Notes under the pieces: model-generated
The model's database searches: none
The model's input: only the letters and a program-made list of their open reading frames with translations
Told to the model about the DNA's origin: nothing
Part shown: positions 11,462 through 44,171 of the stretch, piece after piece
Position numbering within the stretch: the stretch's first letter is position 1
Layout: every line of letters begins with the position of its first letter
Translations under genes and position numbers: made by a program
DNA from: Brachyspira suanatina
GTDB taxonomy: Bacteria; Spirochaetota; Brachyspiria; Brachyspirales; Brachyspiraceae
NCBI RefSeq assembly: GCF_001049755.1
Contig: NZ_CVLB01000001.1
Location: forward strand, 186,001 to 250,000
Length of the DNA stretch: 64,000 bases
Reading direction: 5' to 3'

Positions 11462-12142
11462 ATGCTTACTGTTTACATTGCTGCAAGAGATATAGGTAAT
11501 TATAAAGATAATACTGAAAGATTAAAAGAGGTTTTAATTGAAAGCGATATTGTCTTAGTTGAAAGTTTTAGAGAGGCTACTACACTTTTTAAAGCACTTA
11601 ATATAAGTAAAGATAAAGAATGCTTGATAGAGTTTAGCGAACATACAAAAAAATCCAAAGATATTGATGAAATAATTACAAAGATTATAAACTGCCAAAC
11701 TGTTACTCTTATAAGTGATTGCGGCACTCCAATATTAGAGGATCCTGGAAGATTATTACTTGAATATTGTTATGCTCATAATATAAAGGTTCGTCCTATA
11801 GCAGGTGTAAGCAGTGTTACGGCAGCTATTATGTGCCTGCCTTTTAACTTCAAAGAATTTTATTATGCTGGGCTTTTGCCGCGTGATGACAGAGAACGCG
11901 AAAAAAAATTATCATATTTAAAAAGATTAAATGTTCCTGTTATTATATTAGATACTCCTTATAGATTAGGAAAAGTACTTAATGCCATCAAAAAAGTATA
12001 TTCAAAAGATAAAGAAATAGCTTTATGTTTGGATATTACAACTGAAAGCGAAGAAATCATTATAGATAGAGTATCAGATATATTGGCTAAATATCAGGAA
12101 AGCAAAAAAAGAGAATTTGTAATTGTTATAAGCTCATTATAA
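11462..12142 (+). CDS. rsmI: Short RsmI-like SAM methyltransferase
   Basis: 226 residues of the tetrapyrrole-methylase fold. SDCGTPILEDPG corresponds to the RsmI motif SDAGTPxxxDPG, and AGVSSVTAAI matches the PGxSAxxxA motif. RsmI 2'-O-methylates C1402 of 16S rRNA. This protein is about 50 residues shorter than typical RsmI, lacks the C-terminal helical domain, and does not start with the usual substrate-side segment. It is either a compact RsmI or a related methylase. AGGA precedes the ATG, 10 nt after the amidase gene. Confidence 0.75.
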   Translation: MLTVYIAARDIGNYKDNTERLKEVLIESDIVLVESFREATTLFKALNISKDKECLIEFSEHTKKSKDIDEIITKIINCQTVTLISDCGTPILEDPGRLLLEYCYAHNIKVRPIAGVSSVTAAIMCLPFNFKEFYYAGLLPRDDREREKKLSYLKRLNVPVIILDTPYRLGKVLNAIKKVYSKDKEIALCLDITTESEEIIIDRVSDILAKYQESKKREFVIVISSL

Positions 12143-12149
12143 TTTTTAA

Positions 12150-12363
12150 TCGCACGCTGAGTGATGCTAAAAATATAAAATTGATTATCAATTCAAACTA
12201 AATTTCTTATCAAGATGCATTCACCGTGCGTTTAGAAAATTTTTAAATTTAATTAACGCTTGGGCGGGTATTCCTTTTTCTAATTAAAGCTTTTGATATA
12301 AATAAAATTTTAAAGTCTTAATAGGTTAATAAACCTAAAGGGCGGGGTATGTAAATAAAGCAA
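12150..12363. repeat. Dispersed imperfect-palindrome repeat, copy 1 (right part only)
   Basis: It shares with the copy at 13341-13682 the core CGCACG...CGTGCG pair (12151-12156, 12235-12240), the intervening AAAATATAAAATTGATTAT and TATCAAGATGCATT segments, then a GGGCGGGT block and a terminal GGGCGGGG block. The expected left arm is absent because rsmI coding sequence lies there. It fills the 250-nt gap between rsmI and mrr. Confidence 0.75.
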
Positions 12364-12392
12364 AAAATTTTAGATTATATTATTATTTAATA

Positions 12393-13280
12393 CTATATTA
12401 TAACATCATAAATATTTCTTGTTTCAAGTACTTTCACACCCACTTCATATTCACGCATATATTTAGCAAGCCTGTATCCGTTAATCAGAATTATTTTTAT
12501 ATCTTTTAATTCCTCTACAACTTTTTTAGCCTGCGGAGTGTAATCTGAAGTTGTTATAAAAATTCCTCTGTTTATGCCATTAACATTTTTAAGCCCATGT
12601 GCAAATTTAGTTATTTCGGTATCATTAACTTTATTATTTTCTTTATAGCATTTGCATTGTATTCCTACCATATCAAAACCGAATTTATCCATAGTAAGAG
12701 TGCCGTCAATTCCTCTGTCTCCGCTTCCACCTGTTCTATACTTTTTACCATAACCCATTTTCTCAAGCAGCTCTAAACATATATTTTCAAATTTAGTACC
12801 TTTATCAACATTGTTATCACCCATAGACTGCAAACGATCAAGTATATCTTTCTCTACACTCTCATAATATTCTTCAATGCTCTTTTCTATTTCATTTCTA
12901 TTTTCATCTTCTATTTCCTCTATGTCATCATCATCTGAATTATTTTTGCTGTTTTCTAAATATGGAGTTTTTTCTTTTAATGTTTTGAAATCAAAGTTAG
13001 GATTTTCCTCATAGAATTTTTTACCGAAGTCAGTTATTTGATATACTCCTCTTTCTATGTTTTCTATTAATTGAGCTTTTTTAAGATAAGTTAATGACCA
13101 ATCAACTCTATCACTAAATTTAGAATATTTATTTTCTTTTACTAGTTTTAAATCTTCTTCAGAAGGTTTTGTATATTCTTTTATTTTTTCATATATTTTA
13201 TTTTTATGTACAGCTTCTTTTATATCATATAAATATTTTAGTACATACTTGTCATAATCTCTGTATTTCAAAAGTGCCAT
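12393..13280 (-). CDS. mrr: Mrr-family type IV restriction endonuclease
   Basis: 295 residues. The N-terminal ~100 residues are an Mrr_N winged-helix domain for DNA binding. An acidic linker (about 108-150) leads to the catalytic domain, with GTKFENICLELLEKMGY, the metal-binding Asp in GDRGIDG, and the QCKCY (Q-x-K) motif of the PD-(D/E)xK fold. It is expected to cut modified DNA and act without a cognate methylase; none is nearby. The gene is flanked on both sides by copies of the dispersed palindromic repeat, which suggests movement as a cassette. Confidence 0.9.
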   Translation of the reverse strand: MALLKYRDYDKYVLKYLYDIKEAVHKNKIYEKIKEYTKPSEEDLKLVKENKYSKFSDRVDWSLTYLKKAQLIENIERGVYQITDFGKKFYEENPNFDFKTLKEKTPYLENSKNNSDDDDIEEIEDENRNEIEKSIEEYYESVEKDILDRLQSMGDNNVDKGTKFENICLELLEKMGYGKKYRTGGSGDRGIDGTLTMDKFGFDMVGIQCKCYKENNKVNDTEITKFAHGLKNVNGINRGIFITTSDYTPQAKKVVEELKDIKIILINGYRLAKYMREYEVGVKVLETRNIYDVII

Positions 13281-13306: not shown

Positions 13307-13335
13307 ATCATACTTTAATAATCTATTTTTTACAA
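13307..13335 (-). promoter_or_regulatory. Promoter of mrr
   Basis: TTGTAA, 17 nt, TATGAT on the minus strand, followed by a TAGGAG ribosome site. Confidence 0.55.
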
Positions 13336-13340
13336 TGTTT

Positions 13341-13682
13341 TTTATTTTATTCTGAAATCCCTCCCTTTATTCTATATTGTTTAAATAAATAATTGCACTT
13401 TTATTTTCTTTATTGCCTCATTATAAATTTTACCCCCCCAAGTTTTATTTAAATTTGTTATGTTTTCACCGCACGTTAAGTGATACTAAAAATATAAAAT
13501 TGATTATTAATTCAAATTAAATTTATTATCAAGATGCATTTACCGTGCGTTGAGAAATTTTAAAATTTAATTAAAGTTTGGGTGGGCATGCTTTTTCTAA
13601 TTTAAGCTTTTTATATAAATAAAATTTTTTAATTGAAATTAAAACTATAAATTTAAAAGGGTGGGGATTCAAAATAAAACAA
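13341..13682. repeat. Dispersed imperfect-palindrome repeat, copy 2 (full, ~342 bp)
   Basis: The outer arms are inverted relatives: TTTTATTCTGAAATCCCTCCC near 13345 against GGGTGGGGATTCAAAATAAAA ending near 13680. Next inward come CCCCCCCA (13433-13440) and TTTGGGTGGGCA (13577-13588), then the CGCACG/CGTGCG pair (13470-13475, 13544-13549) around a central AT-rich loop. The element could fold into one long hairpin. No open reading frame spans it. It resembles a MITE or foldback element; mobility is inferred. Confidence 0.75.
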
Positions 13683-13813
13683 AAAAGTAAAATTATTATA
13701 TTTTTAGATAAATTAAAAAATTGTATCAACTTTTTGGATTCGCCAAAGTTGCAAAAAGACAAATGTTATAATAATAAAAAAAATTAAAATATTTTTATAT
13801 ATAATTAAAATAG

Positions 13814-14361
13814 ACTTGTTTCAAAAGTACTTGGCAAAATTAGTTGTATAATTTTTAACAAAATTTTAGTTATAAAATAATGTTTAACATATTGTATAAT
13901 GAATTGTTTTAGTATATACCTAAACAACTACATTTTGTCAATTTTAGTTTTTTTAATTTTATTGTTTGTGGGGACTAGCCCCCAAACCCTCACTTCTTTT
14001 GTTGCCACAAAGAAGCAGCCACAGCCCGCCTTCGGCGAAAGGCTATATTTGAACTTAAATGTAATAAATTATTTTACATGTAAGACAATTTTAGTATGAT
14101 TTAGTACTAATTTTATACTTGCTTTTTTGCAACTTTTTGCGGCGGGAAAAGTTGAATAAAAAAATGACAAACTTAAAAATTTTCAGTATATATAAAAATG
14201 CAGTTCTTTTGGTTCTCGCTGAAGGCGGGCTTCGCCTTATATCAATAAAAGAACTGGAGTTTTGCAAAGCACACAGCGTGGTGGGCAAAGCCCTAACTAT
14301 AAATTTAAAACATAAAAAAATTAAATAGTGGAATATCTATTAATTTAGTTTTGAAACAAGT
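13814..14361. repeat. GC-rich repeat island bounded by a 13-bp inverted repeat
   Basis: A 13-bp perfect inverted repeat (ACTTGTTTCAAAA at 13814, its complement at 14349-14361) encloses about 520 bp with two unusually GC-rich patches. One patch is at 13967-14045 and contains a CGCC/GGCG hairpin. The other is at 14215-14295 and contains AAGGCG/CGCCTT. Short frames across it (such as 13899-14099) look incidental. I believe similar patches recur in Brachyspira intergenic DNA, but this is from memory and unchecked. Confidence 0.5.
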
Positions 14362-14546: not shown

Positions 14547-16055
14547 ATGAAATACAATCCTCAGACAAAAGAAGAATTAAAAGAATTAGTAGAAGATAAT
14601 AATGTTTACTTGTTTGATATTGATACAAGTTTAATTACTGATATGAGTGTATTATTCAAAGAATCAACAAGAAACAAATTTGATGGTATAGAAAATTGGG
14701 ACACTTCTAATGTTATAGATATGCATGATATGTTTTTTAATTGCAGAACATTCAATAGCGATATATCAAAATGGAATGTATCTAAGGTTGAGAATATGGC
14801 TTGTATGTTTTTCGGTGCTGAAGAATTTAATCAGTATATAGGTGATTGGGATGTTTATAGAGTTAAAGATATGAACAGTATATTTTTTGATTGCAAAAAG
14901 TTTAATCAAAATTTAAATAGCTGGAACACATCTAATGTTGAAAATATGAGCTTTATGTTTTATGGGGCATCATCTTTCAATCAGCCTTTGAATAATTGGA
15001 ATGTAAGTAATGTTAAAAATATGTACGGAATGTTTAGCGGATGCAAAAAATTTAATCAGGATTTAAATAGTTGGAATGTATCTAATGCTGAGAATATGAG
15101 CTGCATGTTTTTTGAGGCAGAAAATTTTGATCAATCTATTAGTAATTGGAATGTAGTTAATGTTACTAAAATGTATAGCATGTTTGAGAGATGTAAGAAT
15201 TTTAATCAGAGTTTGAATGATTGGAATGTTTCTAATGTTACGGATATGAACAGCATGTTTAAATGTGCTGAAAATTTTAATCAGCCTTTAAATAATTGGG
15301 ACACTTCTAAAGTTGAAAATATGCGTTCTATGTTTGAAGAGGCATATAGATTTAATTCTGATATAAATAATTGGAATACAAGTAATGTAAAAGATATGAG
15401 TAATATGTTTTGCAAATGTAAAAGTTTCAATAAGCCATTATACAAATGGGATACTTCAAATGTAGTAAATATGAAATGTATGTTTTTTGAAGCGGAAAAT
15501 TTTAATCAAGATATTAATAATTGGAATGTAAGTAAAACAGAAAATATGCTTGGTATGTTTGAGAATGCGTATAGCTTTAATCAGCCTTTAAATAATTGGG
15601 ATATATCTAATGTTTTTTATATGAACCGTATGTTTTTTAATTGTAAGAAATTTAATCAAGATTTAAATACTTGGAATGTTTCTAATGTTAAAAATATGAA
15701 AAGTATTTTTTCCGGATGTGAAAGTTTTAATAAATCAATAGGTGAGTGGAAAATTAATAAAACTTGTGTTATTGATGATATTTTTGAGAATGCAGTTTCT
15801 TTAAAAAATGTTAAATCAATACTCAATATTTATTTTCTTGCCAGAGGAAATCATAGGAAACAACTTTTAAAGATGTTTGAAAATTGCGATTTAAAAGAAG
15901 TGTATATAGAAGTTATAAAATATAATAATGCTGGTATAAAAGATTTTATTAAAAAGCTTGAAAATACATGTTACGATGAATTAAAAGAGTTGATTGATCA
16001 AAAAGAAAATATTATAAAAGAATATAAACAAAAATCTAAAAACAAAAAAATATGA
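14547..16055 (+). CDS. BspA/DUF285-type repeat protein, 15 units
   Basis: 502 residues. Residues 48-422 are 15 consecutive 25-residue units of the pattern (L/I)xxWN(V/T)SNVxxMxxMFxxAxxFNQ, the DUF285 or BspA-like leucine-rich repeat. A ~47-residue N-terminal cap and a basic helical C-terminal tail (ending KSKNKK) flank them. Most BspA proteins are exported surface proteins; this one has no signal peptide, lipobox or membrane segment, so it is predicted cytosolic or exported by another route. Such repeats mediate protein binding. The 75-bp DNA period makes it prone to copy-number change. Confidence 0.9.
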   Translation: MKYNPQTKEELKELVEDNNVYLFDIDTSLITDMSVLFKESTRNKFDGIENWDTSNVIDMHDMFFNCRTFNSDISKWNVSKVENMACMFFGAEEFNQYIGDWDVYRVKDMNSIFFDCKKFNQNLNSWNTSNVENMSFMFYGASSFNQPLNNWNVSNVKNMYGMFSGCKKFNQDLNSWNVSNAENMSCMFFEAENFDQSISNWNVVNVTKMYSMFERCKNFNQSLNDWNVSNVTDMNSMFKCAENFNQPLNNWDTSKVENMRSMFEEAYRFNSDINNWNTSNVKDMSNMFCKCKSFNKPLYKWDTSNVVNMKCMFFEAENFNQDINNWNVSKTENMLGMFENAYSFNQPLNNWDISNVFYMNRMFFNCKKFNQDLNTWNVSNVKNMKSIFSGCESFNKSIGEWKINKTCVIDDIFENAVSLKNVKSILNIYFLARGNHRKQLLKMFENCDLKEVYIEVIKYNNAGIKDFIKKLENTCYDELKELIDQKENIIKEYKQKSKNKKI

Positions 16056-42420: not shown

Positions 42421-43002
42421 ATGCCAAAGAACTCTGAAGATGAAGAAAGAAGATTATTTGAATTCTATTTGGAGCATGGATATCTTCCTGATGAGTTTAA
42501 TAATAAAAAAGAAAATATAAAAAAAGAATTTAATAAAGATAAAGTTCATAAAGAAAATAATATTAATAAAGAAATTCAAATTGATTATAAAGAAGAATTA
42601 GCCTACACAAAAGAAGATGAAGAAATGTTTTTAAGTGCAATTGAGAATCTCGATTGCACTAATCATTCTAAAAAATCAATTCATGACAGAAGAGTTAATA
42701 CTAAATTCAAGCCTAATATAAAAAATGCTATTCCAAAAGATAGATTAGATCTGCATGGACTTACAAGTGAAAGAGCTTTAATAGAAATTAAACATTTTAT
42801 TTATGAATGCAAAAAAAATAAAATAAGCCCAATACTAATAATACATGGTAAAGGTTTCGGAAGTGAGAATAGAATACCTGTTTTAAAAAATCTAGTTGAA
42901 TATTATTTAGCTACAGAAGGAAAAAATTATATAAAATTTTCTTCTGATGCTCCTATAAATCTTGGAGGAAGTGGTGCTAAAATAATTTATTTGGATATAT
43001 AA
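42421..43002 (+). CDS. Smr-domain protein
   Basis: 193 residues. The N-terminal half is charged and probably disordered. The C-terminal ~85 residues form an Smr domain: RLDLHGLTSERALIEI (LDxHG), ILIIHGKGFGSE (HGxG) and the late GGSGAKIIYL. Stand-alone Smr proteins nick RNA or DNA; E. coli SmrB rescues stalled ribosomes by cutting mRNA. It lies 24 nt after rho and may be co-transcribed. Confidence 0.85.
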   Translation: MPKNSEDEERRLFEFYLEHGYLPDEFNNKKENIKKEFNKDKVHKENNINKEIQIDYKEELAYTKEDEEMFLSAIENLDCTNHSKKSIHDRRVNTKFKPNIKNAIPKDRLDLHGLTSERALIEIKHFIYECKKNKISPILIIHGKGFGSENRIPVLKNLVEYYLATEGKNYIKFSSDAPINLGGSGAKIIYLDI

Positions 43003-43010
43003 TATTTTAT

Positions 43011-43352
43011 TTGTTGACTTATTTTAAATCCCCCCTATATGTTTTTTGTTTAATTTAGAATATTTAATTAATTTTCTTTTTCTAGTTTATTTTGAAATTA
43101 TAACTGCCCACCCAAAGTTTAATTATATTTTTATCTTATCACCGAACGCAGAACAAAGTTATGAATATAGATGTATTAATAATAGCAAATTAATAATGTA
43201 TAAAGTTTAATCAACCGTGCGTTAAATATATTTTTAAATTTAAAAACAAATTGTGTGGGTTTTCATTTTCTAAATAAATTAAAAATACAAATTGATTTTT
43301 ATATTAAGAGTAAAATCATTAAAGAATAAAGAGCGGGGGAATGTGAGTGAAT
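43011..43352. repeat. Dispersed imperfect-palindrome repeat, copy 3 (full, ~342 bp)
   Basis: Same plan and length as the 13341-13682 copy: CCCCCC left arm and GCGGGGG right arm, an inner TGCCCACCCAAAGTTTAAT (43104-43122) that is the reverse complement of the right inner arm of copy 2, and an ACCGAACG/ACCGTGCG core pair. It fills the gap between the converging Smr and GHKL genes and could act as a bidirectional terminator. Confidence 0.75.
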
Positions 43353-43361
43353 TTTAAAACT

Positions 43362-44171
43362 TTAATATTTATTATATACCACAAGAGAGAATTGTTTTTT
43401 GATAGGAAGTATTAATTTTGAATGAGTTTTATGATTTTCATCGTATATTTGTAAATGATTATGCGGTTCTAAAGTTTGATTAAATAATCTTAAATCGCAT
43501 AATGCAAGTCCGAATCCTGCACTTTCTGTATTATCTAATTGCTCCATAAAAAATTTTTCTACTAAATTATTTTTATAATATTCTTTAAAAGTTAATCTCT
43601 TAGAGTCTATTCTTGTTCTGCTTATCATTGTAAGAGGAGCATCATTTATTATTTCAAATTCTATATTATTTTTATTAAATCTCACTACTAATGTTATGGT
43701 AAGTTTGCTATTGCATAATAATAATTTTGAGTATTTATTTTCATCAATTTCAATATTATTGTCAATATCTTTTATAAGTTTATTTTCTAATTTTATAAAT
43801 TCTTTTAATTGTTTTATAGTTTCTTCATCTTTTAATATATTAGAATATTCACTCATTATATCATAATCATTGAAATATTCTTCATTTTTTATTTTTTCTA
43901 TAAAATCTGGAAATTTTTCTATTAAAGTATTAATTGTAATAGTATGAAGATATCTAGCTTTTATAGCATTTGAGATAAGCTCCATTATAATATAATGTGC
44001 ATCATTTGTATATTTACTTATATTATACTTTTTTAATATTTCTTCTAAAATGAAATTTATCCTTTGTTTAGAAGAATTATCAAGCCAAGTAATATTAAAT
44101 TTAATAGGTTCTTTTTTATGGTTTTTAATATATTTTTTTATTTCTTCTATATCAGTTTTGGAATCTATCAT
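43362..44171 (-). CDS. GHKL (histidine-kinase-type) ATPase-like protein
   Basis: 269 residues. IIMELISNAIKA (about 67-78) resembles the N-box. FEIINDAPLT resembles the G1 region (usual DNG replaced by NDA). ESAGFGLALCDLRL resembles the G2 glycine box. No dimerisation/phosphoacceptor His domain, sensor or membrane segment is seen. It may be an anti-sigma/SpoIIAB-like kinase or a degenerate ATP-binding regulator. It overlaps the end of lpxB by 4 nt, so it belongs to the fabZ-lpxA-lpxB operon. Confidence 0.65.
   Translation of the reverse strand: MIDSKTDIEEIKKYIKNHKKEPIKFNITWLDNSSKQRINFILEEILKKYNISKYTNDAHYIIMELISNAIKARYLHTITINTLIEKFPDFIEKIKNEEYFNDYDIMSEYSNILKDEETIKQLKEFIKLENKLIKDIDNNIEIDENKYSKLLLCNSKLTITLVVRFNKNNIEFEIINDAPLTMISRTRIDSKRLTFKEYYKNNLVEKFFMEQLDNTESAGFGLALCDLRLFNQTLEPHNHLQIYDENHKTHSKLILPIKKQFSLVVYNKY

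Follow-up and report, generated by a model that had tools for sequence, protein, structure and literature searches.

The DNA analysed here, a 64,000-nt stretch of the Brachyspira suanatina genome (hereafter the window), contains three copies of an intergenic repeat, all read on the forward strand and recovered with nhmmer using a profile built from 17 two-armed copies. The copy that drew attention to the family, element C (43011..43352, +; profile match 42977-43395, 226.4 bits), occupies the space separating two convergent ORFs whose ends are at 43002 and 43362, the first being smr (42421-43002). It consists of a core flanked by two arms: the outer C motif CCCCCC (43030..43035) and the inner C motif CCCACCC (43107..43113) are followed by the core module, P1, which runs from CGAACG to CGTGCG (43143..43221), and then by a worn inner G motif, GTGTGGG (43253..43259), and the outer G motif GCGGGGG (43333..43339). 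Element B (13332..13715, +; profile positions 34-416, 213.9 bits) has the same arm-core-arm architecture, with CCCTCCC (13359..13365), CCCCCCC (13433..13439), a core from CGCACG to CGTGCG (13470..13549) and two copies of GGGTGGG (inner, 13580..13586; outer, 13659..13665). Element C is the more worn of the two, with CGAACG in place of CGCACG and GTGTGGG in place of the inner G motif. Element A (12141..12384, +; profile positions 164-405, 146.4 bits) comprises a core (12151..12230) and a single arm, and begins at the stop codon of a TP_methylase (rsmI-like) gene, directly 3' of it. Between elements A and B lies an Mrr-type restriction gene on the reverse strand (12393..13280), recognised by its Pfam Mrr_cat and Mrr_N domains.

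The original prediction had described two full copies of equal length, at 13341-13682 and 43011-43352, of a long imperfect palindrome with nested inverted arms and no internal ORF. Both copies are indeed present with the nested inverted motifs, and the 43011 copy holds no ORF of at least 90 aa; the one-armed element A had been missed. The equal length is a consequence of fixed motif spacing: each of the two copies carries six GC-rich motifs as inverted pairs at set distances, in the order (start to start) CCCnCCC, ~78, CCCnCCC, 37, CGCACG, 74, CGTGCG, 37, GGGnGGG, ~78, GGGnGGG, yielding an element of ~340 bp whose outer motifs lie 300 bp (13359/13659) and 303 bp (43030/43333) apart.

We scanned 69 stretches around further sites together with the window; the 283 profile rows were reduced to 139 matches by requiring E ≤1e-8 and keeping the better of overlapping matches. 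These fall into 105 clusters with 115 cores, not counting 11 matches devoid of a recognisable hexamer pair. At an earlier stage, one duplicate core was removed. The family emerges as a mosaic of two modules, namely the core P1 of 84 bp (CGCACG...CGTGCG) and an arm, a, of 132 bp bearing GGGYGGG twice. Their geometry is tightly kept: the core measures 78-82 bp from hexamer to hexamer in 111 of the 115 cases, and in 105 of 132 arms the distance between core edge and outer G motif is 107-109 bp. The modules are combined as a'-P1-a, as P1-a and as P1-a-a'-P1, and also form longer arrays that repeat every ~345 bp. Both arms accompany 32 cores, one arm 76 and no arm seven, an arm being scored absent when its inner motif was not found within one mismatch, a criterion that misses a few worn arms (e.g. 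L126 2029). Most pieces terminate at core edges or arm ends: average conservation ceases within ~3 nt of the hexamer on the armless core sides (n=90), with an exception in G010, where ~25 nt of arm persist beside its first core, and the ends of the 11 core-less arms are fuzzier.

The description as a long palindrome proved overstated. Among the cores with no more than one hexamer mismatch (n=107), the halves of the same copy score lower for complementarity (6.47) than halves of different copies do (7.04; 199 of 200 shuffles at or above), and outside the motifs their score is close to that of letter-shuffled halves (6.28). The 32 two-armed copies behave likewise over their whole arms (28.2 within against 30.6 between copies), and no difference is seen between the core edge and the inner motif (9.47 against 9.50). 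Since the spacers are thus non-complementary, the idea of true palindromes with hairpin ends was dropped. The paired motifs themselves also differ slightly. Many cores are polar: in 51 of 115, one side has C at the base inside the hexamer and the other has G; both sides have G in 10 cores and C in two. Where two arms meet, one of the facing GGGnGGG motifs has C as its variable base and the other T at 13 of 18 distinct junctions, and the two bases agree at three. Together, the non-complementary halves, the junction mismatch and the core polarity establish the sites as inverted and slightly unlike, with free spacers between them.

The prediction of a repeat family held genome-wide. The pattern CGCACG-N62..82-CGTGCG has 91 exact sites in the genome of origin (3.26 Mb, 34 contigs) and the reversed control pattern none, and a sequence/structure model of the core matches 23 of 26 Brachyspira genomes. 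The three genomes in which this model found no match (G005, G009, G021) indicate that the genus can do without the element. When element B served as the BLASTN query, all 25 genus genomes searched were matched, the same three only weakly (E ~1e-4), and weak matches came also from two of 16 non-Brachyspira genomes (G031, with 2.7e-5 at best, and G035, with 5.5e-4); we provisionally take the weak matches in these five genomes as chance similarity of AT-rich DNA. Element B matched nothing in the plasmid and phage collections. The only pattern match from IMG/VR (L237) was set aside as fortuitous, as it is 52% GC, lacks a profile match and lies inside an ORF that by eye resembles a polymerase subunit. 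In the titles and abstract openings of the open-access literature we found no published description of such a family, and the ~100-copy repeat goes unmentioned in the passages of Brachyspira genome papers available to us.

The elements show marked preferences in their placement. An overlap with an ORF exceeding 100 bp occurs in only two of the 105 clusters, as judged with our own simple ORF caller. The suggestion that they sit at gene ends is supported by the neighbouring genes: 133 of 208 adjoining gene ends are 3' ends, against 182 of 380 at element-free gaps, and 42 of the 103 clusters with a neighbour on both sides (two lack one) lie in convergent gaps, against 23 of 190 element-free gaps of the same stretches (P=5e-8). 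On a larger scale, with the position of dnaA as a stand-in for the origin (oriC is placed upstream of dnaA in B. pilosicoli in a passage of PMC2897892), the sites of G008 are concentrated away from it. Among the matches listed for this genome, 85 of 103 sites lie in the dnaA-distal half, and their counts by tenths toward the far point are 1, 5, 2, 3, 7, 9, 19, 15, 21 and 21; among those listed for G012 and G019, with genome lengths rounded, the distal half holds 22 of 24 and 24 of 25.

Comparison of corresponding loci points to insertion and subsequent turnover. At smr, the gap is occupied by the element in six genomes, with a tandem array in G010, where two cores 343 bp apart are identical by eye; in G007, G011, G002 and G015 it is empty and smr abuts the convergent gene. 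A tree of the rho-like and Smr proteins places the occupied genomes together and the empty relatives outside, with a support of 0.955 for the split, which fits a single gain on the branch to seven genomes. The flanks TATTTT/AATTTT could by eye be a target-site duplication, one inseparable from chance in such AT-rich DNA. In the gap behind an SMC-like gene (named by eye), cores counted by eye number one in MAG_SI, two in the genome of origin, MAG_BRZ_R and MAG_O21, and four in B. hampsonii; MAG_E20b180 has arms without cores, and B. innocens and B. alvinipulli have nothing. The far side of the gap has other genes in MAG_SI, MAG_E20b180 and the two element-free species, and the array sizes are thus anchored on one side only. 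At this locus in the genome of origin (C3 near 384 kb, L228 and L229 joined), two arms of an array are kept apart by ~150 bp of different sequence that looks by eye like another repeat; the corresponding arms abut in MAG_BRZ_R, MAG_O21 and B. hampsonii.

The neighbourhood of the Mrr-type gene varies in a comparable manner. By BLASTN of the relatives, the whole unit of element A, mrr and element B lies between non-matching flanks in G002, as do mrr and element B in G010, where element A is matched only in part, and in G007, where it is unmatched. Two copies of mrr accompanied by elements exist in G003; one adjoins rsmI, and the other the homologue of window positions 16.2-17.0 kb. A core-type profile match is present at the 3' end of each of three similar genes in L128 (2418-7916), one of these matches lacking clear hexamers, and the element therefore seems to travel with gene duplication. 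Among the 97 elements of the genome of origin with a match of at least 150 nt elsewhere in that genome, none reaches 90% identity (best 85%, median 73%). Given this absence of near-identical pairs and the turnover at the compared loci, the spread of the element is probably old or rare, and local duplication can be recent.

The resident copies change unevenly. We aligned four orthologous sets from three loci, 20 sequences in all (smr, 6; rsmI, 6; the first core behind the SMC-like gene, 5; the second, 3), chosen because a near relative or the genome of origin holds a copy, with the motif columns defined on those very alignments. Of 1158 comparisons at motif sites, 32 show a difference (2.8%), against 2214 of 10430 (21%) for spacer sites and 558 of 1388 (40%) for the G/C sites of the spacers. 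The least diverged set shows the weakest contrast (4/72 motif against 48/557 spacer differences), with one motif placed two bases off. As unselected G/C should be lost fastest in an AT-rich genome, the motifs of the compared resident copies seem to be maintained by selection in situ. Element C is itself a worn copy.

Among the explanations that might account for these features, a structured RNA, or a bidirectional 3'-end or terminator element working in transcripts, would agree with the location at gene 3' ends, with RNA folding energies below those of shuffles (z-scores of -2.95 and -5.60) and with the way in which abutting arms set GGGYGGG opposite CCCRCCC with T-rich DNA behind. However, RNAalifold on 41 cores predicted only the six hexamer pairs, none of which has a kept change on both sides; the original prediction, in proposing a structured RNA, had itself named arms without compensatory changes as the observation that would speak against it. 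The lower complementarity of same-copy halves and the C/T mismatches of the facing motifs likewise argue against function as a stem, some cores lie directly behind a separate hairpin with a T-run (by eye, e.g. L127 and L187), and Rfam gave no match in the window at the gathering score and none for 42980-43400 at E up to 1. The RNAalifold result, the same-copy against other-copy test and the empty Rfam search led us to reject this proposal, which we regard as improbable. Recombination sites of the integron type, with the core cut at its edge, were considered in view of the general attC box consensus RYYYAAC ... GTTRRRY: the right edge of many cores reads ..CGTGC-GTTAAAT, conservation stops abruptly on armless core sides, the arms behind the SMC-like gene lack their core in one MAG, and the mrr gene with one or both elements has different flanks in some species. 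Yet the resemblance was judged from the box consensus, the core-less arms have fuzzy ends, and the copies are dispersed behind ordinary chromosomal genes (by eye) rather than gathered in a single cassette array. Moreover, the integron integrase model TIGR02249 scored above its cut-off in none of the 26 genus genomes; PF00589 occurs in all 26, and the leading type of tyrosine recombinase is present also in the three without a core-model match. Integron-type sites were rejected for want of both an integrase over the cut-off and cassette arrays, and we consider them highly improbable; passages of PMC3607928 name Treponema as the only spirochete clade found carrying integrons.

A more serious contender is a plain selfish, MITE-like element, in which the motifs would be transposase-binding sites and the location at gene ends would reflect tolerance, with no function for the host. 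The foldback or MITE relationship suggested in the original prediction gains from the filled and empty sites at smr, and the two-armed form, being under 0.5 kb, free of ORFs and bearing inverted motifs at its outer ends, has a fitting anatomy; the rarity of overlaps with ORFs and the biases toward gene ends and away from dnaA are also expected of a tolerated selfish element. On the other hand, no matching transposase came from the families searched, Y1_Tnp and the tyrosine recombinases: Y1_Tnp, the RAYT domain, is found in none of the 26 genus genomes (against five of 14 control genomes), tyrosine recombinases occur also in the three genomes without a core-model match, and by eye no transposase was noticed among the ORFs of seven stretches. 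Furthermore, many copies end at the core edge rather than at the outer end, no pair in the genome of origin reaches 90% identity, and the retention of motifs in resident copies is unexpected for dead ones. We therefore see this as a possible, if somewhat unlikely, account of the family.

At roughly even odds (a probability of about 0.5), we instead favour the reading of the element as a modular, interspersed intergenic DNA repeat, a BIME-like mosaic spread by insertion and kept as arrays for the docking of a protein. Its working parts would be the two unlike, inverted half-sites of the core, ~74 bp apart, and the two GGGYGGG motifs per arm at their fixed spacing. These motifs are predicted to be bound by a host DNA-binding protein, which may form a complex of fixed geometry on the surrounding AT-rich DNA. 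New copies would arise by rare insertion and local tandem duplication, and resident copies would be kept since docking benefits the host. By analogy with what has been proposed for enterobacterial BIMEs, docking would most likely set a boundary or control topology where transcription units end. The concentration far from dnaA additionally makes a chromosome-organising role possible: the elements might be docking sites of a Brachyspira nucleoid protein organising the dnaA-distal half, and thereby a spirochete counterpart, by function only, of the Ter-domain systems, a rather doubtful extension that we offer tentatively.

Several known systems offer parallels. In the enterobacterial Ter domain, matS is present as many copies of a conserved inverted site; the Brachyspira elements are likewise numerous, inverted and mostly far from the origin, unlike matS being far longer and forming arrays. 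The BOX and other pneumococcal repeats (compare PMC3049150) are made up of modules combined in differing numbers between genes. This property is shared by the Brachyspira element, which differs, by description rather than by sequence, in that its motifs are inverted about two centres with a spacing fixed to 1-2 bp. The likeness to MITEs lies in short, ORF-free elements with inverted end motifs, inserted at sites that are empty elsewhere; the differences are that no parent transposase was found among Y1_Tnp and the tyrosine recombinases, and that core edges also act as ends. The closest resemblance is to BIMEs, which are extragenic, lie near gene 3' ends and are mosaics of alternating inverted units with suspected protein-binding sites (in part from passages of PMC2817692). 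The Brachyspira element shares all of these attributes along with variable arrays, whereas its modules measure ~80 and ~130 bp against 20-40 bp for the units of BIMEs. A REP/RAYT system was rejected, there being no Y1_Tnp in the 26 genomes; for want of this gene and of the hairpin complementarity of REP units, we have not filed the element under REP/BIME.

The family flags gene ends and the dnaA-distal part of the chromosome, and the variation of array length between species makes it a possible typing marker. Since selection appears to act on resident copies at a handful of GC-rich motifs, a simple pull-down should be able to reveal a DNA-binding partner, and if such a partner exists, it would open up chromosome organisation in a little-studied genus.

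The surroundings of element B hold two further features. A second interspersed intergenic repeat, of the CACTTCTTTTG...AAAGAAGCA type, adjoins it at window positions 13700-14120, and pieces related to this repeat are present in 20 of the 70 stretches (the window counted in). Beyond it, a protein of 502 aa with six DUF285 stretches is encoded at window positions 14547-16055.
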